Position numbers and translations under genes: made by a program
The notes under the pieces: generated by a model
What the model saw: only the letters and a program-made list of their open reading frames with translations
The model's database searches: none
Told to the model about the DNA's origin: nothing
Source of the DNA: Craspedostauros australis
Lineage: Eukaryota; Bacillariophyta; Bacillariophyceae; Mastogloiales; Achnanthaceae
Reading direction: 5' to 3'
NCBI GenBank assembly: GCA_026770025.1
Contig: JAMXDE010000010.1
Span: 1,860,001 to 1,924,000 of the forward strand
DNA length: 64,000 nt
Shown: positions 4,715-61,078 of the stretch, piece by piece
Position numbering within the stretch: the stretch's first letter is position 1
Layout: the number at the start of each line of letters is the position of its first letter

Positions 4715-6859
4715 ATGATGTCCGCTGCGAGCCGATCGCTGATGAAGGCTAGGATGCCACCATCGCAATCATTGGCGATGATGCAAGGCACTGTGCAACG
4801 TTACTCGACCACGATCGGGCATGGCTACTCCAACGGCCTTCTGTCCGCCCACAACGCGCATCACACCAAGTACCTGCAGAATCTGAGGCGATGGCACCGC
4901 AACTTCTGGAGGTTGTACGCGCGCCGCATGCTCGATCTCATGGCCATCTCGGCATCGGCCATGGCGTTGCGTCAAAAGGCCAGCAAGCTCGAGGCGGTGG
5001 CGCAGCCCAAGCGATGGCAGAATTGGGAACGCGCCGATTGGGAGGAGACGGCGTTGGCCTCGGTGGGTGCGTCGTCCTTCCAGCGATGGTGGATGGCGAC
5101 GCAGCGCGTCATCACCCTGGGAGCGTTGGTGTCGCCGTTGGCCATCCTCGTGCCGCTTTCCTACGTGTCGGATCGCGCCAAGGATGGGGCCTGGGCCTAC
5201 GCGCTGTGGGGCATCGAGCATGCTGGTCCCACGTGGATCAAGCTCATGCAATGGGCCACGACGCGTCAGGATCTCTTCTCTCCCGACTTCTGTCAGTACT
5301 TCGGCAAGCTGCGCGACAACACGACGGGACACTCCTGGCAGGAGACGAAGCGCATTCTGCAGGAGGAGCTCATTGGGACGGAGTCGGGCGCCACCGTCGA
5401 TAAGAACGGACGTCCTCCCGTCATGAATGAGAAGTTGACTTCCGATCCCAACAGTCCGTTCTACAAGAAACCTGGCAGCAGCTTCAAGCGCAACAAAACG
5501 GATGGCAGCGGCATGGCGGCACCTTCGTCGTGGGAGGATCTCGTCCGACTCGATCCGAAACCGATTGGAAGCGGCTGCATCGCCCAGGTCTATCAGGGAG
5601 AGCTGCTGCACCCAACACCGCACTTCCCAGCCAACACGAAGATCGCCGTCAAGGTGCAGCACCCTGGCATTTGGCACAAAGTCTGCGTCGATTTCTACGT
5701 CCTCGGAAAGATGGCCAAATTCTTGGAATCCATACCCTACCTCAACCTCCGCATGCTCAGTCTCTGTGACACCATCCGCCAGTTCCGCGACATCATGATC
5801 CCGCAGCTCGATCTCACCTTGGAGGCCGACCATCTCAACCGTTTCAACGCGGACTTTTCCAACATGCCCAGCATCGACTTCCCCAAACCGCTCACCGAAC
5901 TCACCACGACCCAGGTCCTCGTCGAGACCTTCATTGAAGGCACACCAATCATGGACTACGTCGATGCCAGCGAACCAGAACGCATACAGCTGGCGCATTT
6001 GGGATTGGAGTCGACGCTCAAGATGATCTTCTTGCACGATTTTGTTCATGGAGATTTGCATCCAGGTAAGTGATTGCGTTGGTGAAAGTGTGGCAGAATG
6101 GCAGTGATCATAATCGTCGATTTGCAGTGCAGAAGAAAGCATGATTGTCCTAATGCATTCCTCTTTTTGCATCATCTCACCCTTTGCTCGCACATCCCTG
6201 TTGATGAATTTCACATTCTTTCGACGACCAATTCATACCAAACCAACCAAACAACAACAAATATTGACATTGGCAATGCCTCTGACACCGACCCCAACAC
6301 AGGTAACATTCTCATCAGTGGCACATACCCAAAGCTGAAGCTCAACCTGCTCGATTGCGGATTGGTGTTGGAGATGGGACCCTCGCAGCACGTCAACCTC
6401 GTCAAGGTTTTGGGTGCATTCACGCGGCGAAACGGACGGCTCGCAGGAGAACTCATGATAGACATGAAGGCGCAGCAACGACACCATCAGGCCTTGGTCG
6501 ACGGTGCCGGCAACACGCTCATGGGCGGACCCAACGAGGCCCAGCTCGCGGCCGAACAGCTCGCGATCCGCCAGAAAGCCGAAAGGGACGTGCAGGCCTT
6601 CATCGACGGCATCGAATACATTTGCGTCAAAGACGAAGGGCAGAATTTCATTGAGAACGTGGGCGATTACATCACGGATATTTGCACCTTGGCATGCCGG
6701 CATCACGTCAAACTGGAGCCTGCCTTCATCAATGCCGCGTTGGCCGTGGAGATCATGGAAGGCGTGGCCGCGGCGTTGCATCCCGAGCTACGGGTGCAGC
6801 AGGTCGCCTTGCCCTTGGTGATCCAAGCCGAGCTCATGCATCGCATGGGATTGCATTGA
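4715..6859 (+). CDS. ABC1/COQ8-family atypical kinase, ADCK2-like, mitochondrial (two exons)
   Basis: Exons 4715-6065 and 6303-6859 are joined across a 237-nt intron (donor GTAAGT, acceptor CACAG), giving 635 aa. The splice completes the catalytic motif HGDLHPGN (445-452), the UbiB/ABC1 signature. The start at 4715 was chosen because it gives a basic, Ser-rich mitochondrial-type pre-sequence (MMSAASRSLMKAR) and follows an AT-rich promoter; the frame is open further upstream. A hydrophobic segment lies near 131-152. The nucleotide-binding loop reads PIGSGCIAQVYQG and the lysine segment KIAVKVQHPG. The metal-binding motif is LLDCGL, in place of DFG. At 176-179 the family KxGQ motif reads KLMQ. 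ABC1 proteins support ubiquinone biosynthesis or mitochondrial lipid homeostasis; ADCK2 type is inferred from the GSGCIAQVY loop. Substrate unknown. Confidence 0.93.
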
Positions 6860-9137: not shown

Positions 9138-10815
9138 TCAAGCAAATAGAAGGAGATACCCAATCGATTGAGCGGCTACAACAGCGCTCAGCTGGACCAC
9201 TGGCGATGCGGATGGAGGGGCGGTTGCGTTTCCAGAAGGTAAACCGACCTCCAGCAATTCGGTTGTATTGATACCGTTGTTCACCATCTTTTCGAACACG
9301 TTGCGGAAGTCCTCCAACCACAGAGCTCCGTTGCTCGCGTATTCGGCAAGCTTGGCACTGGTGCTCGCGCTGGAGCAGTTAGAAGTGCCGAGGTTTGCGT
9401 TGGTGCCGGCGAAGTTGCAGGTCACGAAGCCATCGGCATCCATGGACCCAGCGAAGTCGTACGCCAGTGCAAGATCGGCATTGAGGAAGAAGTCGTCATC
9501 GCCTCCACCGTTACGTTCCCAGATGGCATTGCCATTGGCAGCAACTTCGATGTCAAAGTTGCTGTCGAGTACACGGCGCAGGAATTCATTGTCCAATGTT
9601 AATTTATCCTCCACCCATACACCGTCCACCAAACCGGAGTTTTCCTCGTTGAGCTCTCCGCTGCGTTGATGGTCGAATGGATAGATGAAAGCATGGGCGC
9701 ACATGTACATGCACACAGTGTTGAATTGAGAGATGATGAGAGCACACTGGTGAGCGAGGTTGTTTGCGCTTGCATACTGTGTATCTCATTCGACAATTGC
9801 AACCACAGCCGCAGCCGCAGCACACCCTCACGCGAAGGCAGCACCTCAAACTTACAGCGTATGTGCGCCCATGATTGCGACAGTCTCGTCAGCGTCGAAG
9901 TTGAAGTGCTGTCGGAAGTATTCGAGCAGTTGTTCGGTGGTGAGGTTCACTCCTGGCAGCTCTCGTTCTGGACCGGCTGTCTCGCTGAAGCCAGCAGTGT
10001 CGCATGTCGGTCGACCGTACACCTCGAAACGGTAGTCGAACTTGGTTCTGGGTTGCATCGTTTCCGCGGCCGTCATCCCAGCCACCGCCCACACATCGGT
10101 ACGGGTGAGGTATTGAGAATACTTTGTCACAAATGGGCGGAGAGCCTCGATTGGGGCTAGCAATCCATTGTTGTCTTGGTTGTTTAGGTTGATGCACCCG
10201 TCACACATGTCGACGCAGTCATGGAAGATGAGACGGACCAGCTGCGGTCCAAGACGCTCGCTGCTTCGGACCATCTTACCGACTTCGTATCGAAGCGAGT
10301 CGACTGCATCCCTTGGAGCGTCGAAGTCCAGCGGGGTGCCATCGTCGCCAGTGGCTCGGCTGGATGCATCGCCCTCAGTGCTCTGGGAATCAAAACTTCC
10401 ACGTCTTCCACCACGATGCAAGGCACGGCCACCATGAACGGATCCGTCGTTCACATGCATGGCATCGCCTGTGCACGGTGCGGCAGCATCCGTGTCATGA
10501 GGGTTGTCGCCGCCTGCGGTGTATCCGAGGTATGGGCATGCGTGTGCGACGGCAACGGTTGCGAGGAAAGTTGCGAGGCTGATCTTCATCTTGGATTTAG
10601 GTAGTTTGTGTGCGTGTTTGCTTTGCTTTTGCTTTGCTTTTGCTTTTGCTTTGGATGTTTGTTTGCCTGTGTGCTCGTTGGTTTGATTCGCTTTTGATTT
10701 TGCCGGTGATTGGTTTTGTGAGATGAGACTGCCCCCATCGGTACCAATCAGTGTCCCGCACAAGATGATGGGCCGCATGCTGACGTCTTGTGCACGATCC
10801 GTGTAGTCACTTATG
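8931..10815. repeat. Tandem duplication unit, copy A
   Basis: This segment matches 12940-14815. The offset is a constant 4009 bp from the 3' flank through both exons and the intron to the start codon. Upstream of the gene the spacing shifts because a CTTTTG-type microsatellite near 10620-10660 is longer here. The duplicated unit holds one complete peroxidase gene with about 200 bp of 3' flank and about 225 bp of 5' flank. Endpoints were placed by eye and are accurate to roughly 10-20 bp. Confidence 0.85.
9138..10589 (-). CDS. Secreted plant-type heme peroxidase, copy A (two exons)
   Basis: Exons 10589-9856 and 9660-9138 are joined across a 195-nt intron (donor GTAAGT, acceptor CGCAG), giving 418 aa. 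The splice joins GAHTL to GELNEENSG, as expected after the proximal histidine. Residues 1-17 form a signal peptide (MKISLATFLATVAVAHA). The distal motif RLIFHDC gives Arg119 and His123, and IMGAHTL gives the proximal heme ligand His243. A cysteine cluster (CVDMCDGC) follows the distal His. The C-terminus ends in a hydrophobic tail after a Ser/Pro spacer, suggesting a GPI anchor or membrane tether. Such enzymes reduce peroxide with an organic co-substrate at the cell surface; the substrate is unknown. A paralogue of about 95% identity sits 4009 bp downstream on the map, with intron and coding lengths identical. Confidence 0.93.
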
Positions 10816-12129
10816 TATGCACTCAAGCACATAACGCCCTGTTGCCGATAAACCCTTAAGTGGTCATAGATAGACGTTAATAGCGTTAAATTTGTTATTA
10901 GTGTATCCCTTTACGACCGGAGCTTAACGCCCATATTATGGGCGATATAACGACACTAGTTGTTTTTTGAACGAATTTTCCCTACCAGGGCCTACGTGAA
11001 AACTAAGTCTGTACCCCTCACAACTAGTGTTGTCGTGGGAAACTACTGAATTCTTGTTTGTGTCTATTTCACTTCTTTCCATGGTATATATCCCAATGAT
11101 CCCTACAGATATAGACTCGGCAGAAGCTACACATCCTGGTAACCCGTTTAGGTTTGGTTCCCTCCTTGCCAGAAAGTCGTGCATTTGTGTCGGAATGTGT
11201 GTACTCGGATGTGTATGCATCAGTCACACTTGCTTGCCGTCGGGAATATTTGTTGGCGCAATCATGACCCAAAACTGGTGATGTCACAACGATCCAACCA
11301 CGATACCACGAAGATACTGCGATACTAAAATGCCAGGATACCGCGATACCAGCAGATACCACAGTATCCATCACATGCGACGATACCTGAAGGCCTTACC
11401 TACCAGGTCTACAGAGAATGAAATATGTTTTAAATAATCCAACAGATTCCATCAATCATCAGATTCAACAAAACCTGAGAATGGAACAACGACGAGACAA
11501 TGAGAGAATTGCGACAAGGTCAACAACAACCAAGACAACATCAACGCGCAACAAGGAGACCAATGTGCATGGGAGGTGCAAGAGGATTGCACCAGCAACG
11601 ACCGTGGAGAGGAGATGGATCAAGAGAGCATCTTGATCATCTCATTCCCCACGCACGCTCATCAACAATCAGAAATGACTACAGTAACAAGTAACAGAAA
11701 CACTTTCGACAAAGAGTGTGACTACTACCGATTCTCCGTGCGCGGAACCTTCCAACAGAGAGCATCAGAGATTTGGTCTGGCCACCACCCGGAAAAGCAT
11801 GAGACGTCAATATTTGAAATGATCTACTTCCCAACTAAACCTGAAGCGACACCAACATCGACGACCTCAAGCATCATCAATGGAATGCGGAATCGACAGT
11901 GCCATGGAGTGGTGACAAGTGACATCGACACAAGAGGCGTCATCGCTACATCATGGGTCATCTCCACGTCAGAACAAGATTGCAAAGATGCATGACCAAG
12001 AGCTGTCCTTCAACACAGCAACATGAGATACAACACAAGAAAGGTAACATAGATTCAGAAGTCACTCTACCCAATCAGTGTCTTTACTACACCAGCTCAT
12101 CGCCATCTTCCTGAAAGACTTGATCTCTC
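10816..12129. other. AT-rich inter-duplicate spacer, probable decayed element DNA
   Basis: This stretch has no match in the second copy of the duplication. It is more AT-rich than its neighbours around 10840-11110 and contains a stem-loop at 10928-10944 (arms CGCCCAT and ATGGGCG). A cluster of GATAC repeats lies near 11299-11390. Short open frames rich in Gln, Arg and Thr (about 11418-11995) could be eroded retrotransposon coding sequence, given the copia fragment that follows, but I cannot recognise a domain. No host gene is supported. Confidence 0.4.
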
Positions 12130-12939: not shown

Positions 12940-14815
12940 GAAAATGGGAGTGGCCGAACATCCGCCAATGTTCGATTGTTGTCCGATACAACATACATGG
13001 TCCGTTATCACAGTAAGAACACAGATGGAGTTACTGTAAATGGTATATTCTAACTATATCAAGTATACCATGTTCACCGAACCAAGGTGTTGTCCAACTT
13101 CGCGCATCTGGAGATGCAGTGCGACAAGGCGCAGCAGCCGCCGTGATCAAGCAAATAGAAGGAGATACCCAATGGATTGAGCGGCTACAACAGCGCTCAG
13201 CTGGACCACTGGCGATGCGGATGGAGGGGCGGCTGCATTTCCAGAAGGTAAACCGACCTCCAGCAATTCGGTTGTATTGATACCGTTGTTCACCATCTTT
13301 TCGAACACGTTGCGGAAGTCCTCCAACCACAGAGCTCCGTTGCTCGCGTATTCGGCAAGCTTGGCACTGGTGCTCGCGCTGGCGCAGTTAGAAGCGCCAA
13401 GGTTTGCGGTGGTGCCGGCGAAGTTGCAGGTCACGAAGCCATTGGGATCCATGGACCCAGCGAAGTCGTACGCCAGTGCGAGATCGGCATTGAGGAAGAA
13501 GTCGTCATCGCCTCCACCGTTACGTTCCCAGATGGCATTGCCATTGGCAGCAACTTCGATGTCAAAGTTTCCGTCGAGTACACGGCGCAAGAATTCATTG
13601 TCCAATGTTGTTTCATCCTGCACCCATTCACCGTCCACCAAACCGGAGTTTTCCTCGTTGAGCTCTCCGCTGCGTTGATGGTCGAATGGATAGATGGAAG
13701 CATGGGCGCACATGTACATGCACACAGTGTTGGATTGAGAGATGATGCGAGAACAATGGTGAGCGAGGTTGTTTGCGCTTGCATACTGTGTATCTCATTC
13801 GACAATCGCAACCACAGCCGCAGCCGCAGCACACCCTCACGCGAAGGCAGCACCTCAAACTTACAGCGTATGTGCGCCCATGATTGCTACAGTCTCGTCA
13901 GCGTCGAAGTTGAAGTGCTGCCGGAAGTATTCGAGCAGTTGTTCGGTGGTGAGGTTCACTCCTGGCAGCTCTCGTTCTGGACCGGCTGTCTCGCTGAAGC
14001 CAGCAGCGTCGCATGTCGGTCGACCGTACACCTCGAAACGGTAGTCGAACTTGGTTCTGGGTTGCATCGTTTCCGCGGCCGTCATCCCAGCCACCGCCCA
14101 CACATCGGTACGGGTGAGGTATTGAGAATACTTTGTCACAAATGGGCGGAGAGCCTCGATTGGGGCTAGCAATCCATTGTTGTCTTGGTTGTTTAGGTTG
14201 ATGCACCCGTCACACATGTCGACGCAGTCATGGAAGATGAGACGGACCAGCTGCGGTCCAAGACGCTCGCTGCTTCGGACCATCTCACCGACTTCGTATC
14301 GAAGCGAGTCGACTGCGTCCCTTGGGGCGTCGAAGTCCAGCGGGGTGCCATCGTCGCCAGTGGCTCGGCTGGATGCATCGCCGTCAGTGCTCTGGGAATC
14401 GGAACTTCCACGTCTTCTACTACGGTGCAAAGCACGGCCACCATGAACGGATCCGTCGTTCACATGCATGGCATCGTCTGCGCACGGTGCGGCAGCATCC
14501 GTGTCATGAGGGTTGTCGCCGCCTGTGGTGTATCCGAGGTATGGGCATGCGTGTGCGACGGCAATGGTTGCGAGGAAAGTTGCGAGGCTGATCTTCATCT
14601 TGGATTTAGGTAGTTTGTGTGCGTGTTTGCTTTTGCTTTGGATGTTTGTTTGCCTGTGTGCTCGTTGGTTTGATTTGCTTTTGATTTTGCAAATGATTGG
14701 TTTTGTGAGATGAGACTGTGATCGAGATGCCCTCATCGGAATCAATCAGTGTCTCGCGCAGGATGATGGGCCGCATCTCGACGTCTTGTGTACGAACTGT
14801 GTAATCACTTATGCA
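12940..14815. repeat. Tandem duplication unit, copy B
   Basis: This is the counterpart of 8931-10815: the same order of 3' flank, exon 2, intron, exon 1 and 5' leader, without internal indels across the gene. The left edge lies close to the copia remnant. The 5' leader has a shorter CTTTTG microsatellite than copy A and begins to diverge at about 14815. Confidence 0.85.
13147..14598 (-). CDS. Secreted plant-type heme peroxidase, copy B (two exons)
   Basis: Exons 14598-13865 and 13669-13147 are separated by a 195-nt GT-AG intron that is nearly identical to that of copy A; the product is again 418 aa. It keeps the signal peptide, distal Arg/His (RLIFHDC), CVDMCDGC cluster, proximal IMGAHTL and hydrophobic C-terminal tail. 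About 20 residues differ from copy A, concentrated in the low-complexity segment after the signal peptide (HRSRRRGSSDSQ against HRGGRRGSFDSQ) and just after the splice (GEWVQDETT against GVWVEDKLT). The heme pocket is unchanged, so both copies look functional. Loss of the glycosylation sequon NAT (NAA here) near the tail is one change that could alter processing. The tandem arrangement suggests a recent dosage increase or early divergence. Confidence 0.93.
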
Positions 14816-40566: not shown

Positions 40567-42519
40567 ATGAGATCAACCGCTTCTACCAGTGCAATGACAA
40601 AGACGATCACAGTTGCGCTTTGCGTTCTGTGCGCCATCAACTTTCTGTCGGAAGATGTGACGGCATTCCATGCCACCAACCAGCATTTCTTGCCACAGCC
40701 AATCGCCTCCAAGGTGCATGGCCGCAACCAGTCTCGACAGCAGCAGCAGTATCAGTCTCATCATGAAAAGCACGTTGATGACCCGCTCCACGTACCGACG
40801 CGGCTGCATACCTCCAGCGACATCGATGCCGACTCCATCATCACGAATGCAACGATGACGGAGACACCGACGGAAAGCGGGACGACCACGAAGGCGGACG
40901 CATCCTCCACCAAGGAGATGCTTCGCTTTGCACTGCCCGCGCTGGGCATCTTCCTCGCCAATCCGTTGCTCAGCAACATCGACAACGCCTTCATCGGCAA
41001 GACCGTCGGCACACAGGGGTTGGCGGCCATGTCACCGGCCACCGTCTGCACGGATCAGATGCTCTACCTCTTTTCCTTCCTGGGACGTGCCACCACCGGG
41101 TTGGTCTCGGGCGCCTTCGGAACGAACCGCGATACCGATGCCGCACGCGAGGCGGCTGCTGCACCGCTCACCGTCTCCTTGATCTGCGGTGTCTTCCTGT
41201 CCATCTTTTACGCCGTCGGCACGCCGCTGCTGCTTTCGGGACTCAATGTCAACCAGGCTCTGCGTCCCGCCGCCGCATCGTACGTCCACTGGCGCGGCGC
41301 CATCTCCTGGGCCGCATTGGGACAAGCCTCGGCCTTGTCGGCCATCATGAGCACGAGGGATGCCATCACGCCGTTGAAGATTGTGGCGTTGGCGGCGGCC
41401 ATCAACATCGTGGGCGACGCCGCGCTGTGCGTGTGGCCGTTGCGCATGGGATGCGCTGGTGCGGCGGCCGCAACGTCCTTCGCAACCGTCGTGTCGACGG
41501 CGTTCATGTGTCGCGCGTTGCACAAGAAGAAGATGCTGCCCAAGCTCAAGCTGCCGTCGAAGAAGGAATGGGCCGCGTTGCTGGAGTACACGGGGCCGCT
41601 CATGGCCATCACCGTGGCGCGTCTGCTGGGTACCATCGCCATGCAGAAGAAGGCGATGGCGCTGGGCGTTCCGGAGACGGCCGCACTGCAGGTCTCCATC
41701 AATCTGGTCTTCTTCTTCTTCCTCTTTGGCGAGCCAATCTCGCAGCTGTCCCAAACCACCCTGCCGGCCCTCCTGGCGGACTCCAAGAAGTCGCGTGACG
41801 TGGGACCCGCAGTGCGCCAGAACTTGAAGAGTATTCTCAAATTCGGCGCCGTCACGTCCGTGGTCGTGGGTGCCACCGCGGGTCTCATCTTGAACTTTGG
41901 TGCTGGTGCATTCACGTCCGATGCGGTTGTTCGCACGTTGGCGCAGGCAGCATCACCATCCGTCTTTGTGGCCGTGGCGACTTGTATCTTTGCCAGTACG
42001 TGCATCCAATGTTGAATGGACGGATTGCGGTTGCTCTTACTCGTTTTTGTTTCAATGCTGCGTGTACCTGTCTTGCGTCATTTGGTTACCATTGTGTTTG
42101 CTTGCCATCAATGCTCTCACAAGTACAGGTATGAATGGTGTCCACACGTGCTTCAATCTATTCTAACTCCATTTGAATTTCACGATATTATATAATACAT
42201 GATACTCTGTCTTCCCACTCCATCCCTACCCTACTGCAATACCCGCGCAAAATCACATAAATTATGAATCTATCAAACAGTCGCCGTGGACGGTGCCATG
42301 CTGGCATCGCGTGATTTCGGCTTCATGCTGGCCGTGGCGATGTCATCGTTGGTGGTGCAGATGTATCTGTTGAAGAATTGGGTGACGAATCTGTCCGGAA
42401 TTTACTACACCTTTGCATTGAGGATCGGAGCGTACACTCTGTTGTCGCTTTTGCGTATCTTTTCGGGAAGGGGCGTGCTGGGCCAGTTCTACCGCAAGGA
42501 GAAGACCAAGGCGGCTTAG
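40567..42519 (+). CDS. MATE/DinF-family transporter, predicted plastid (two exons)
   Basis: Exons 40567-41995 and 42281-42519 are joined across a 285-nt intron (donor GTACGT, acceptor AACAG), giving 555 aa. The start at 40567 gives a signal peptide (TITVALCVLCAINFL) followed by DVTAFHATN, a plausible heterokont plastid site with F at +1. The mature region begins with LRFALPALGIFLANPLLSNIDNAFIGK, the typical MATE N-terminus, then VSGAFGTNRDTDAAREAA, ALSAIMSTRDAITPLK and NIVGDAALCVWPL. The splice joins CIFA to IAVDGAMLASRDFGFM, the late MATE helix, and the protein ends KEKTKAA. About twelve hydrophobic segments are visible. Plant relatives such as EDS5 export phenolics from chloroplasts; the substrate here is unknown. 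The plastid location is inferred from the leader only. Confidence 0.9.
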
Positions 42520-47372: not shown

Positions 47373-48512
47373 ATGTCCATTCTGTCATCTGGTTCCATCG
47401 CACTGTTGGTGTGGATATCGGCATGCATCCATGGTTGCCTTGCATGGGCGCCTGCATCACAGCCAAGTCGTCCATGGAGATCCACACGGCACACTTCCTC
47501 ATCACTTTCGTCGAGATCGTCACAATCGACGTCGACGACGATAATGAGGAACAGAATGACGTATCAATTCAATCCGTCGACACACGAAGTCCTCCTGCAT
47601 GCTGCATCGCTGGATTCTGCTGCGGTGATCAACGCAACTGCTGACTCCACGGCAAAGCAAACCAAAGACGACAGCATTGACGCCACCAGACTGCGCAAAT
47701 TGCAGGGCAAGCTCCTCAAGAGCATGCGCCAAGTGTGCAAGGACTATGACATGATCCAGCCCAACGATCACATCATGATTTGCGTGTCGGGTGGCAAGGA
47801 TTCCGCCACGCTGCTCTACCTCATGTTGCTGCTGCAGAAGCAGCTGGCACCCACGTGTCCCTTCCAAATCACGGCGGTGCATGTCGATCAGAAACAGCCC
47901 GGATACAATGGAAAGCCGTTGCTGGAATGGTTGCAACAGGACCTTCAAGTTCCGTACCACATCATCGAGGAGGACACGTACTCCGTCGTCGTCGACAAGA
48001 CGGACGCCGGCAAAAGCTACTGCACCATGTGCTCACGATTGCGCCGCGGCATCCTGTACACGACGGCCCAAACCAAGCTGACCAACTGCACCAAACTCGC
48101 GCTGGGACATCACGCCGATGACGCCATGGAGACCATGTTCCTCAACATGATCCACACGGGATGCATGCGATCCATGCCGGCCCGGTACACAGCCCAACGC
48201 GCATCGCTGGGCGTGCTGCGTCCTCTCATCCTGTGCTTGGAAGCGGATATTGCCGAGTACGCGCAGCTGCGGCAATTTCCCATTTTGCCTTGCAATCTGT
48301 GCAGCAATCAGGCCAATTTGCAACGTCCGCAAATCAAGTTGCTGCTGGAGACCTTGTTGACGTTCACGCCGGATGCGAAGAAGAATGTGATGAATGCCAT
48401 GGGAGATATCCATCCGAGTCACATGCTGGATCAGAAGTTGCGCAAGTCGTGCGGGATGGATCCGATCACGGGAGAGAGCGACGAAGACGATGAAATGGCG
48501 GAACTGCGGTGA
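47373..48512 (+). CDS. TtcA-like tRNA 2-thiocytidine synthetase with plastid pre-sequence
   Basis: A single exon of 379 aa. Residues 1-25 form a signal peptide (SIALLVWISACIHGCLA) followed at once by WAPAS, matching the heterokont plastid motif (A then W/F-A-P), so the protein should be imported into the plastid. The catalytic part has the PP-loop SGGKDS (139-144), the cysteine pair in YCTMCSRLRRGILY (217 and 220), the ADD-type GHHADD, and a second pair in PCNLCSNQANLQRP (307 and 310). These are the ATP-pyrophosphatase loop and iron-sulphur cysteines of TtcA, which makes 2-thiocytidine at tRNA position 32 in bacteria. The ending VMNAMGDIHPSHMLD also fits. The C-terminus is acidic. It is probably a bacterial-type enzyme serving plastid tRNA; the specific substrate is unproven. 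Confidence 0.9.
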   Translation: MSILSSGSIALLVWISACIHGCLAWAPASQPSRPWRSTRHTSSSLSSRSSQSTSTTIMRNRMTYQFNPSTHEVLLHAASLDSAAVINATADSTAKQTKDDSIDATRLRKLQGKLLKSMRQVCKDYDMIQPNDHIMICVSGGKDSATLLYLMLLLQKQLAPTCPFQITAVHVDQKQPGYNGKPLLEWLQQDLQVPYHIIEEDTYSVVVDKTDAGKSYCTMCSRLRRGILYTTAQTKLTNCTKLALGHHADDAMETMFLNMIHTGCMRSMPARYTAQRASLGVLRPLILCLEADIAEYAQLRQFPILPCNLCSNQANLQRPQIKLLLETLLTFTPDAKKNVMNAMGDIHPSHMLDQKLRKSCGMDPITGESDEDDEMAELR

Positions 48513-57286: not shown

Positions 57287-58501
57287 ATGGCGTCAACGAA
57301 CTGGAACAATGATTCGCCGTTGTCACGCCCGAACAACACGGATTGGGTCTCGGGCGTCTTGGAAATCGCATCAAAAAGGAACGTAAAAAAATCATCCAGG
57401 GATTCCATCCGATTCGCTTCCATCGCCAAGTCTCTCGACAGTGATGTCCAAGTCAATCCAAAGCTGGACGCCACCAAGGATAAGTTGGCTGCCGCAATCA
57501 AACTTCGGCAAGTAAGCGTTGTGGAGGACATCTTGGAGAAGTGCGATGCAGATGACAAGCTGAAGGCAGAATATCTCAAGCATGCGCTGAATGCTGCAAG
57601 CGACGCAAAGTGCTCTGAAATCATGATTTCCCTGACCAAGCCATGGTTTGAGCAACATTCGAAGAAGAAATCGACATGCGACACCACCACAAATACTTTC
57701 ATGCAAATGGCACTCCTCAGCGTCAACCAGGATAGACTCAAAGCTCTCGAACACGAAGACTTTGCTGATCTCATCTTCCTCGTCGGAAACCGTGACAAAC
57801 AACAAGCCATCAAAGCGAACAGTTGGGTGGTGCGAGCCACTGTCCCATCCATCCGCACCATGATCGATTCTGGTATTCACACACAACGTCAAGATCAAAC
57901 CACATCCAACAGCACCAGCAATAACAACGAGGACCTCAAAGTGAATGTCAACAACAATACCGCCACCATCCTCCTCCCTGACCTCCATCCAACACATGTC
58001 AGATACATCATTCGATACATCTACTCTGGCGATGTCACCTTCCTCAACGGTGATGACATGTCAAAGGCGGACGATCTCCGAGACATGATCAAAACGGCCA
58101 ACCGATTCGGATGCTGGAAGCTCAAGCTCATCATCGAGGCACAGCTCATCAATAAGCATCTCACGGGATCTTCAATGATCGATCTGTTGCTGCTGGCACG
58201 TGAGCACGAGTGTGTGATGCTCAAGGATGCTGGCATCCGGATGGCTGCCAAGAATGTGGATGAGTTGTTCGGTCATCCGGAGTGCGGCCGGTTGATCGCA
58301 TGCACTGAGCTGATGACTGAAGTCCATGTGATGCGCAAGGGTGACGTTCCAAGTGATGGGACTGTGAATGACGAGTTTTCGAAGATGTCGGTGATGGAGT
58401 TGTACGGGTCCTTGGCTGGGAAGGATAATGTGAAGGTGGAGGCGTACATGGATCGCCCATCATTGCTGGCGTTGGTGCGCTCCGCGGCCATAGAGGGTTG
58501 A
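57287..58501 (+). CDS. BTB/POZ-domain protein
   Basis: A single exon of 404 aa; the start at 57287 (GCAAAATGGCG) fits and gives MASTNWNNDSP. The N-terminal 150 residues are helical (KLAAAIKLRQVSVVEDILEKC) and unlike the downstream paralogue. The BTB core begins near 145 with NQDRLKALEHEDFADLIFLVG, SWVVRATVPSIRTMID, then a divergent linker and LLPDLHPTHVRYIIRYIYSGDV, followed by a long helical tail (ANRFGCWKLKLIIEAQLINK, LLLLAREHECVMLKDAGIR). BTB domains mediate dimerisation and Cullin-3 recruitment; partner and target unknown. From 57963 to 58489 it is nearly identical to its neighbour. It probably arose with the ankyrin-BTB gene by duplication. Confidence 0.9.
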   Translation: MASTNWNNDSPLSRPNNTDWVSGVLEIASKRNVKKSSRDSIRFASIAKSLDSDVQVNPKLDATKDKLAAAIKLRQVSVVEDILEKCDADDKLKAEYLKHALNAASDAKCSEIMISLTKPWFEQHSKKKSTCDTTTNTFMQMALLSVNQDRLKALEHEDFADLIFLVGNRDKQQAIKANSWVVRATVPSIRTMIDSGIHTQRQDQTTSNSTSNNNEDLKVNVNNNTATILLPDLHPTHVRYIIRYIYSGDVTFLNGDDMSKADDLRDMIKTANRFGCWKLKLIIEAQLINKHLTGSSMIDLLLLAREHECVMLKDAGIRMAAKNVDELFGHPECGRLIACTELMTEVHVMRKGDVPSDGTVNDEFSKMSVMELYGSLAGKDNVKVEAYMDRPSLLALVRSAAIEG

Positions 58502-59281: not shown

Positions 59282-61078
59282 ATGTCCTCTGCAGAACGTA
59301 TGAGTCTCCCAATTCGGCCAGTCAAAGAGAAAGACTTGATCTCCGCTGCCGAAAACGGCGATTTGGATGTCATCGAAACATGGAACACGTGGTACCGAAC
59401 GGAGCTGGTCGATACGATCAAGGATGAGAATGGCGATAATCTCCTGATGAGTGCTTGCTGGTACGGCCACATGGATATCGTGGAATACCTTGTGATATCA
59501 TGCAAAGCAGACGTCAACGGGCGCAACGAGGATGGCGATACGCCTCTTCACTTTGCCTGCTGGAACGGACATCTCCCCATTGTCCAGTTCTTGGTCGCAG
59601 TGTGTGGCATGGATGTCAACGTCCGAGATGGCCAAGGCTGCACGCCTCTCCACGACGCAAGCGGTTGCTGGCACAGTCACATTGTTGAGTTTTTGAGCGA
59701 CGAGCATCACGCAGACGTCACACTCCAGAATGACAACGGCGACACTGCGTTGCTCTTGGCATGCTTCAGCGGTGATCCAGTCATCGTCGATCGCCTGAGT
59801 TCTCGATGTGCAAAAACTATTGGTCTCCCAAACAAGGATGGAACCACGCCGATGCACTACGCTTGTTCGCAAGGTTGGTTGGACGTTGTGAAGCTGTTGG
59901 TAGAAACTCACAAGGCTGCCGTCAACGTCCAAGACAATGAAGGCAACACCCCTCTGCATGACGCGTGCCGATGGTGCCGTGAAGATGTCGCCACGTATCT
60001 AGTCCACTCGTGCAAGGCGTGCACAACCACCAAGAACTCACAAGGTCAAACCCCGTTGGAGTACGCCGAAGAAATGGATCGTGCCATTATCATTCAGCAC
60101 AGATGCCTCCCCGTTCCACTTGTTCCACCCAAAGAACAAGTGCGGGACACCCACGTTGTAGATACATTTTCGACAACTAAAGCAGCGCATCCCTTGGGGA
60201 ACATCAACCAGGATAGACTTCAGGCTCTTGAAAATGACAGCTTCGCCGATCTTGTCTTCCTCGTCGGAGAACCTGAGGAACAACAGGCCATCAAAGCAAA
60301 CCGTTTCATGCTGCTCGCCGCTGTTCCATCCATCCCCGCCATGATCGATGCTGGCACCCGCATCCAGCGTCAAGATCAAACCGCACCCAACAGCACAAAC
60401 AATGGCAGCGAAGATTCTGATATTTCTTTCGTTAGCTGTCTTGGTGCCAACAGCAGCAACACGTCCACGAACACTATCAATCTCACCACCATCCTCCTCC
60501 CTGACCTCCATCCAACACATGTCAGATACATTATTCGATACATCTACTCTGGCGACGTCACCTTCCTCAACGGTGATGACATGTCAAAGGCGGACGATCT
60601 CCGAGACATGATCAAAACGGCCAACCGATTCGGATGCTGGAAGCTCAAGCTCATCATCGAGGCACAACTCATCAATAAGCATCTCACGGGAGCTTCAATG
60701 ATCGATCTGTTGCTGCTGGCACGTGAGCACGAGTGTGTGATGCTCAAGGATGCTGGTATCCGGATGGCTGCCAAGAATGTGGATGAGTTGTTCGGTCATC
60801 CGGAGTGCGGCCGGTTGATCGCATGCACTGAGCTGATGACTGAAGTCCATGTGATGCGCAAGGGTGACGTTCCAAGTGATGGGACTGTGAATGACGAGTT
60901 TTCGAAGATGTCGGTGATGGAGTTGTACGAGTCCTTGGATGGGAAGGATAATGTGAAGGTGGAGGCGTACATGGATCGCCCATCATTGCTGGAGCTGGTG
61001 CGCTCCGCGGCCGCAGAAACGCCGGCAGAAACACCCGCAGATACACCGACAGAGATGGACACAGAGGAAAGCAAATGA
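59282..61078 (+). CDS. Ankyrin-repeat plus BTB/POZ protein
   Basis: A single exon of 598 aa, starting MSSAERMSLPIRPVKEK. Residues about 20-270 hold ankyrin repeats, for example DGDTPLHFACWNGHLPIVQFLV, GQGCTPLHDASGC, DGTTPMHYACSQGWLDVVKLLV and EGNTPLHDACRWCREDVATYLV. A linker precedes the BTB core near 315 (NQDRLQALENDSFADLVFLVG, FMLLAAVPSIPAMIDAG, LLPDLHPTHVRYIIRYIYSGDV), then the same helical tail as the gene upstream. The end differs (ETPAETPADTPTEMDTEESK, acidic and TP-rich). Ankyrin-BTB proteins often act as Cullin-3 adaptors. Nucleotides 60486-61012 are almost identical to 57963-58489 of the neighbour, while the rest is diverged, so gene conversion is likely. Confidence 0.92.
   Translation: MSSAERMSLPIRPVKEKDLISAAENGDLDVIETWNTWYRTELVDTIKDENGDNLLMSACWYGHMDIVEYLVISCKADVNGRNEDGDTPLHFACWNGHLPIVQFLVAVCGMDVNVRDGQGCTPLHDASGCWHSHIVEFLSDEHHADVTLQNDNGDTALLLACFSGDPVIVDRLSSRCAKTIGLPNKDGTTPMHYACSQGWLDVVKLLVETHKAAVNVQDNEGNTPLHDACRWCREDVATYLVHSCKACTTTKNSQGQTPLEYAEEMDRAIIIQHRCLPVPLVPPKEQVRDTHVVDTFSTTKAAHPLGNINQDRLQALENDSFADLVFLVGEPEEQQAIKANRFMLLAAVPSIPAMIDAGTRIQRQDQTAPNSTNNGSEDSDISFVSCLGANSSNTSTNTINLTTILLPDLHPTHVRYIIRYIYSGDVTFLNGDDMSKADDLRDMIKTANRFGCWKLKLIIEAQLINKHLTGASMIDLLLLAREHECVMLKDAGIRMAAKNVDELFGHPECGRLIACTELMTEVHVMRKGDVPSDGTVNDEFSKMSVMELYESLDGKDNVKVEAYMDRPSLLELVRSAAAETPAETPADTPTEMDTEESK

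Follow-up and report, generated by a model that had tools for sequence, protein, structure and literature searches.

A TtcA-type tRNA thiolase with a putative plastid-targeting presequence encoded in the nuclear genome of the diatom Craspedostauros australis

The tRNA modification 2-thiocytidine at position 32 (s2C32) has been described for bacteria and archaea, and in Escherichia coli the responsible enzyme, TtcA, acts on tRNA-Arg(ICG), tRNA-Arg(CCG), tRNA-Arg(UCU) and tRNA-Ser(GCU), according to the available text of PMC5372739. Within the TtcA/TtuA family, the accessible part of PMC3980101 gives the presence of two CxxC motifs as the mark of group I, to which TtcA belongs, and ascribes five CXXC(H) motifs to group II, i.e., TtuA, NcsA and CTU1. 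A review, as far as its available text goes, has three cysteines of TtcA holding a [4Fe-4S] cluster, the third of which is numbered 222; because residue 222 is not a cysteine in E. coli K-12 TtcA, the third cluster cysteine is here taken to be C210 or C213. Two further proteins serve for comparison, both described in the available part of PMC9420914. The apicoplast enzyme TgMnmA would resemble the protein reported here in being a nucleus-encoded tRNA thiolase for a complex plastid; it belongs to a PP-loop subclass other than TtcA and has U34 as its target, while Toxoplasma TgTtcA (TGGT1_294380) is composed of aminotransferase class-V and PP-loop parts and is located in the cytosol and nucleus. 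The surveyed literature, which lay mostly outside subscription journals and was available in part, contains no report of either TtcA or s2C from plastids or from diatoms.

The window, i.e., the whole 64-kb stretch of DNA analysed here (C8:1860001-1924000 of an assembly with 90 contigs and a total of 74.8 Mb), contains at 47373..48512 on the forward strand a complete single-exon gene, delineated by its open reading frame and by profile search, for a TtcA-type tRNA thiolase of 379 residues with an N-terminal presequence. The frame opens with ATG, has in-frame stops upstream and runs intact to a stop at 48512, which rules out a pseudogene. The genome holds one copy of this gene, plus a single relative of ~31-32% identity on another contig, C10. 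Bacterial contamination is unlikely, since the GC3 of the gene (0.71) matches that of four other window genes (0.70-0.77) and the contig, which carries eukaryotic genes, is 2.61 Mb long. A neighbouring gene in the window carries DUF6824, a domain typical of diatoms, and in the genome the light-harvesting family PF00504 is matched 61 times. Neither tRNA genes nor Rfam matches were found in the 64-kb window.

On the evidence of profile, motifs and modelled fold, the protein is firmly predicted to be a true TtcA of group I. It scores 312.9 bits against the NCBIfam TtcA model NF007972 (curated equivalog cut-off 272; E 2.1e-93), with a match that spans model positions 5-268 of 295. In a search with this model, 11 of 14 control genomes gave a match, one of them, presumably E. 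coli, above the cut-off. Furthermore, the protein shares 45% identity with E. coli TtcA (b1344) over 256 aa and 50.6% with a Persicobacter stretch, and chance likeness to the TtcA family is excluded by these identities together with the above-cut-off score and its E value. The catalytic domain comprises residues 95-363 (47655..48461, +), as delimited by the NF007972 match and the AlphaFold model. It contains the PP-loop SGGKDS (residues 139-144; 47787..47804, +), which is predicted to bind ATP and is invariant in both the 12-row A1 and the 25-row A3 alignments, followed by a first CxxC pair, C217/C220 (CTMC, residues 217-220; 48021..48032, +; E. coli C122/C125), by the RRGILY block (residues 224-229; 48042..48059, +), identified in the translation and in alignment A1, and by a second pair, C307/C310 (48291..48302, +; E. 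coli C210/C213), which lies within PCNLC (residues 306-310). These are the only two CxxC motifs of the protein. Their four cysteines are invariant in A1 and, like the PP-loop, map one-to-one onto E. coli TtcA; in A3, invariance is complete for C310 and almost complete for C307. The candidate cluster cysteines are all present and aligned.

Of note, the PP-loop, both CxxC pairs and the RRGILY and PCNLC blocks are shared with E. coli TtcA, from which the protein differs in being encoded by a nuclear gene of an alga, in possessing a plastid-type presequence of ~66 residues and a further linker, and in carrying the variants GHHADD (R at that place in nine of the 11 other A1 rows) and CSN (CGS in ten of those 11). 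The AlphaFold model, with a mean pLDDT of 89.4 over residues 101-379, shows a fold resembling TtuA and TilS, and Foldseek placed TtuA and NcsA at ranks 1-17 (E 3.1e-13, TM about 0.6-0.7). The fold is thus common to group II, from which the two CxxC motifs set the protein apart. The initial annotation had proposed a TtcA-type enzyme on the grounds of the PP-loop, the two CxxC pairs and the RRGILY and PCNLC blocks; all of these were found as described, and the assignment is borne out by the profile score, the mapped motifs and the fold. The competing identity that it had named, a CTU1/TtuA-type uridine thiolase, was rejected, the scores being far below the respective cut-offs (NcsA, 38.8 bits against 500; TtuA, 36 against 450) and the CxxC motifs numbering only two. 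The lysidine synthetase TilS was likewise rejected, with a score below the TilS cut-offs.

Plastid preproteins of heterokonts bear an aromatic residue at the signal-peptide cleavage site, in a so-called ASAFAP-type motif. By composition, residues 1-24 of the diatom protein (MSILSSGSIALLVWISACIHGCLA; 47373..47444, +) are signal-peptide-like, with a hydrophobic core, a single His and no K, R, D or E, and residues 25-66 (47445..47570, +), which start with WAPAS, are transit-peptide-like, with seven K/R/H, 43% Ser/Thr and no acidic residue. Cleavage, placed from the motif, is likely to occur at CLA-WAP. By inspection and by an ad hoc pattern, the presequence conforms to the heterokont arrangement of signal peptide, W at the cleavage site and transit-peptide composition, and the plastid signal read there by the initial annotation, CLA-WAPAS included, holds at the sequence level. 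The pattern, which was written after the sequence had been seen and is a rough control rather than a trained predictor, was matched at full score by one of the 213 window ORFs of at least 80 aa, namely that of TtcA, while 17 others matched a looser form. Targeting of the window TtcA to the plastid is judged likely from its N-terminal sequence. One of the 17 ORFs matching the looser form, a MATE-family protein at 40567, displays a VTA-FHA motif of the CLA-WAP type.

The explanation that we favour, with moderate confidence, is that a true TtcA with a two-part presequence works in the stroma, is served by the SUF system and forms s2C at what is likely C32 of plastid tRNA-Arg or tRNA-Ser; s2C32 in plastid tRNA is, as a proposition drawn from these sequences, plausible. 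The protein would be made in the cytosol with its two-part presequence, the signal peptide of which would bring it into the endomembranes that surround the complex plastid, while the transit peptide initiated by WAP would carry it on into the stroma. There, plastid SUF, with SufB and SufC plastid-encoded and SufS encoded elsewhere in the genome, would supply a [4Fe-4S] cluster, with three of the four CxxC cysteines as its ligands. Using ATP, the PP-loop would adenylate an anticodon-loop cytidine at C2, most probably the one at position 32 of plastid tRNA-Arg or tRNA-Ser, and a sulfide bound to the open iron site would take the place of the oxygen to yield 2-thiocytidine. SufB and SufC were both detected above cut-off on the 133-kb plastid contig C90, which also carries rbcL, and SufS gave one match above cut-off (562.7 bits) on a contig other than the organelle contigs C90, C83 and C89, in a frame that holds one TAA, perhaps because of an intron. 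MnmA was found above cut-off at two places, also on contigs other than those three.

Plastid tRNAs were identified with ARAGORN in the readable part of C90, approximately two fifths of this contig reading N. Nine were found, three of which have C32, i.e., two tRNA-Met(CAU) and tRNA-Leu(UAA), while tRNA-Arg(CCG), the only E. coli-type TtcA substrate in the readable part, has U32. The mitochondrial contig, C89, encodes 24 tRNAs, of which 11 have C32, tRNA-Arg(UCU) and tRNA-Ser(GCU) among them. Given the U32 of plastid tRNA-Arg(CCG) and the C32 of these two mitochondrial tRNAs, the occurrence of C32 gives the plastid no advantage over the mitochondrion and, as far as readable, leans to the latter. 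In plants, plastid tRNA-Arg(ACG), tRNA-Arg(UCU) and tRNA-Ser(GCU) have C32. As separate observations on C90, a class II tRNA of 87 nt, with a long variable arm and the anticodon CAU, is encoded at L018:1652-1738 on the reverse strand, adjoining tmRNA and tRNA-Arg(CCG), and L016:2980-4251 matches the C-terminal part of rpoC2, with a long frame at 528-2708 just before it; rpoC2 may be split in two frames here, by a real change or by an assembly error.

The U32 of plastid tRNA-Arg(CCG), taken with the C32 of the two tRNA-Met(CAU) and of tRNA-Leu(UAA), could also mean that a TtcA-like thiolase works in the plastid but has shifted to a different target, i.e., another anticodon-loop base such as position 33, or C32 of tRNA-Leu or tRNA-Met, for which s2U33 in trypanosomatid tRNA-Trp, described in the available text of PMC5372739, is a precedent. 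We consider such a shift unlikely, as the protein scores above the equivalog cut-off for TtcA and retains the bacterial TtcA motifs, and as U32 was seen in one of the four classical substrates, the other three not being among the readable plastid tRNAs. The C32-bearing tRNA-Arg(UCU) and tRNA-Ser(GCU) of the mitochondrion, and the overall count of 11 in 24 there, fit an enzyme that works in that organelle, alone or beside the plastid, its presequence having been misread or being bypassed by a downstream start, and Met codons are indeed present at residues 58 and 62, ahead of the catalytic domain. Yet residues 1-24 have no R or K, a long hydrophobic core and WAP at the likely cleavage site, which is unlike mitochondrial presequences, and two Rhizobiaceae rows, the sole alphaproteobacterial sample in the trees described below, were weakly rejected as sisters (p-AU 0.039), making a mitochondrial role distinctly improbable.

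The presequence opens with a signal-peptide-like stretch, and sequence alone is no proof of passage into the stroma; the signal peptide might therefore act by itself, leaving the protein in the endomembrane system or the periplastid space with no part in plastid tRNA modification. The transit-peptide-like composition of residues 25-66 argues against such retention, which we regard as very improbable, and we know of no substrate for an ATP-using Fe-S tRNA enzyme in either place.

The relative of the window TtcA on C10 (C10:1837878-1841030; L006:1399-5337 plus 5295-5888, reverse strand) encodes a fusion of at least 1287 aa, in which a TtcA domain stands behind an aminotransferase class-V/SufS-like domain with a conserved HKM motif, the lysine of which we take to be the PLP site. 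This copy, ~31-32% identical to the window TtcA, scores about 198.4-202.7 bits against the TtcA model, under the cut-off of 272. Upstream lies an open frame with a first Met in MSEEKNAAS and no signal peptide, which, judged by eye, continues the aminotransferase domain and is likely a first exon; more exons are possible. This fusion and TgTtcA are, like the window TtcA, eukaryotic TtcA-family PP-loop proteins, but differ from it in having a cysteine-desulfurase-like sequence joined to the TtcA domain, and the C10 thiolase may thus carry its own sulfur donor. The C10 protein is a fusion that seems to lack a signal peptide, and its Toxoplasma counterpart is cytosolic and nuclear. The two diatom copies are thus built differently and probably reside in different compartments, which would leave a role in an organelle to the window copy. 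A 693-aa frame at C21:247746-248297 (L009:1420-3501, reverse strand) gave a weak match of 30.4 bits to the TtcA model, and appears by eye to contain a different PP-loop domain, preceded by unrelated N-terminal sequence.

With regard to the origin of the window TtcA, 188 genomes of Myxococcota, so labelled after the phylum of a Polyangiaceae genome, were searched; 141 matched at E <=0.001, the best being 49-50% identical to the window TtcA, while the weaker matches are probably other PP-loop proteins. The window TtcA groups with 14 Myxococcota rows both in a 51-row tree (support for the set 96/90) and in a 70-row tree (95/84), in the latter of which it sits on a long, flagged terminal branch. 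Sampling was lopsided, with 30 Myxococcota rows (the best 30 loci of the 141 matching genomes), 14 plasmid rows, E. coli and viral-contig rows and zero cyanobacterial rows; L001-L003 were dropped as duplicates before the first tree, and the second was built without six rows, including the C10 paralogue, that were long or distant. The highest plain identity to the window TtcA was not myxobacterial in the 51-row set, being that of Persicobacter (47% over 257 columns), and in the 70-row set a viral-contig row of partial length came first (49% over 207 columns). Placement of the window TtcA with the 31 proteobacterial, Persicobacter and viral-contig rows was not rejected (p-AU 0.28), and Persicobacter alone as its sister gave a p-AU of 0.075. 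A scan of genome contigs with the window protein returned three distant bacterial loci of 28-34% identity. Viral contigs gave zero matches to the single protein as query and 42 loci to an alignment, of which 38 passed the filter and 25 non-redundant ones were kept; 19 of these 25 group with E. coli in a single clade.

The initial annotation had left open whether the gene was acquired with the plastid or by separate transfer. The former finds no support, given that Synechococcus elongatus, the only cyanobacterium among the 14 control genomes, has no TtcA match and that the window TtcA joins Myxococcota rows; moreover, the 49 plasmid records that gave a TtcA match include none with a cyanobacterial name. 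Separate transfer fits better, albeit with the proteobacterial placement still standing, and our best guess from these weakly sampled trees is that the gene would have been donated by a bacterium that was not the ancestor of the plastid.

It is conceivable, although we hold it to be rather doubtful, that C32 is thiolated in two compartments by two separately acquired members of the TtcA family, i.e., in the plastid by the window TtcA, from a myxobacterium-like donor, and in the cytosol by the desulfurase-TtcA fusion with its own sulfur source. To our knowledge, s2C tRNA modification is not known from plastids, and if this two-compartment reading were true it would be the first assigned to a plastid, and perhaps to any eukaryote. 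If s2C32 is made in the plastid, an Fe-S-dependent anticodon-loop modification would depend on plastid SUF, the decoding of Arg and Ser codons by the modified tRNAs would hang on it too, and the window TtcA would be a candidate plastid tRNA enzyme of non-cyanobacterial origin.

Elsewhere in the window, two pairs of similar frames were observed. On the reverse strand, the frames at 9852-10832 and 13861-14736, approximately 3 kb apart, share a part that is nearly identical by eye and probably represent a recent duplication; the first of them matches the haem peroxidase family. On the forward strand, the frames at 57287-58501 and 59282-61078 have a C-terminal region that is nearly identical by eye, while their N-terminal parts differ.
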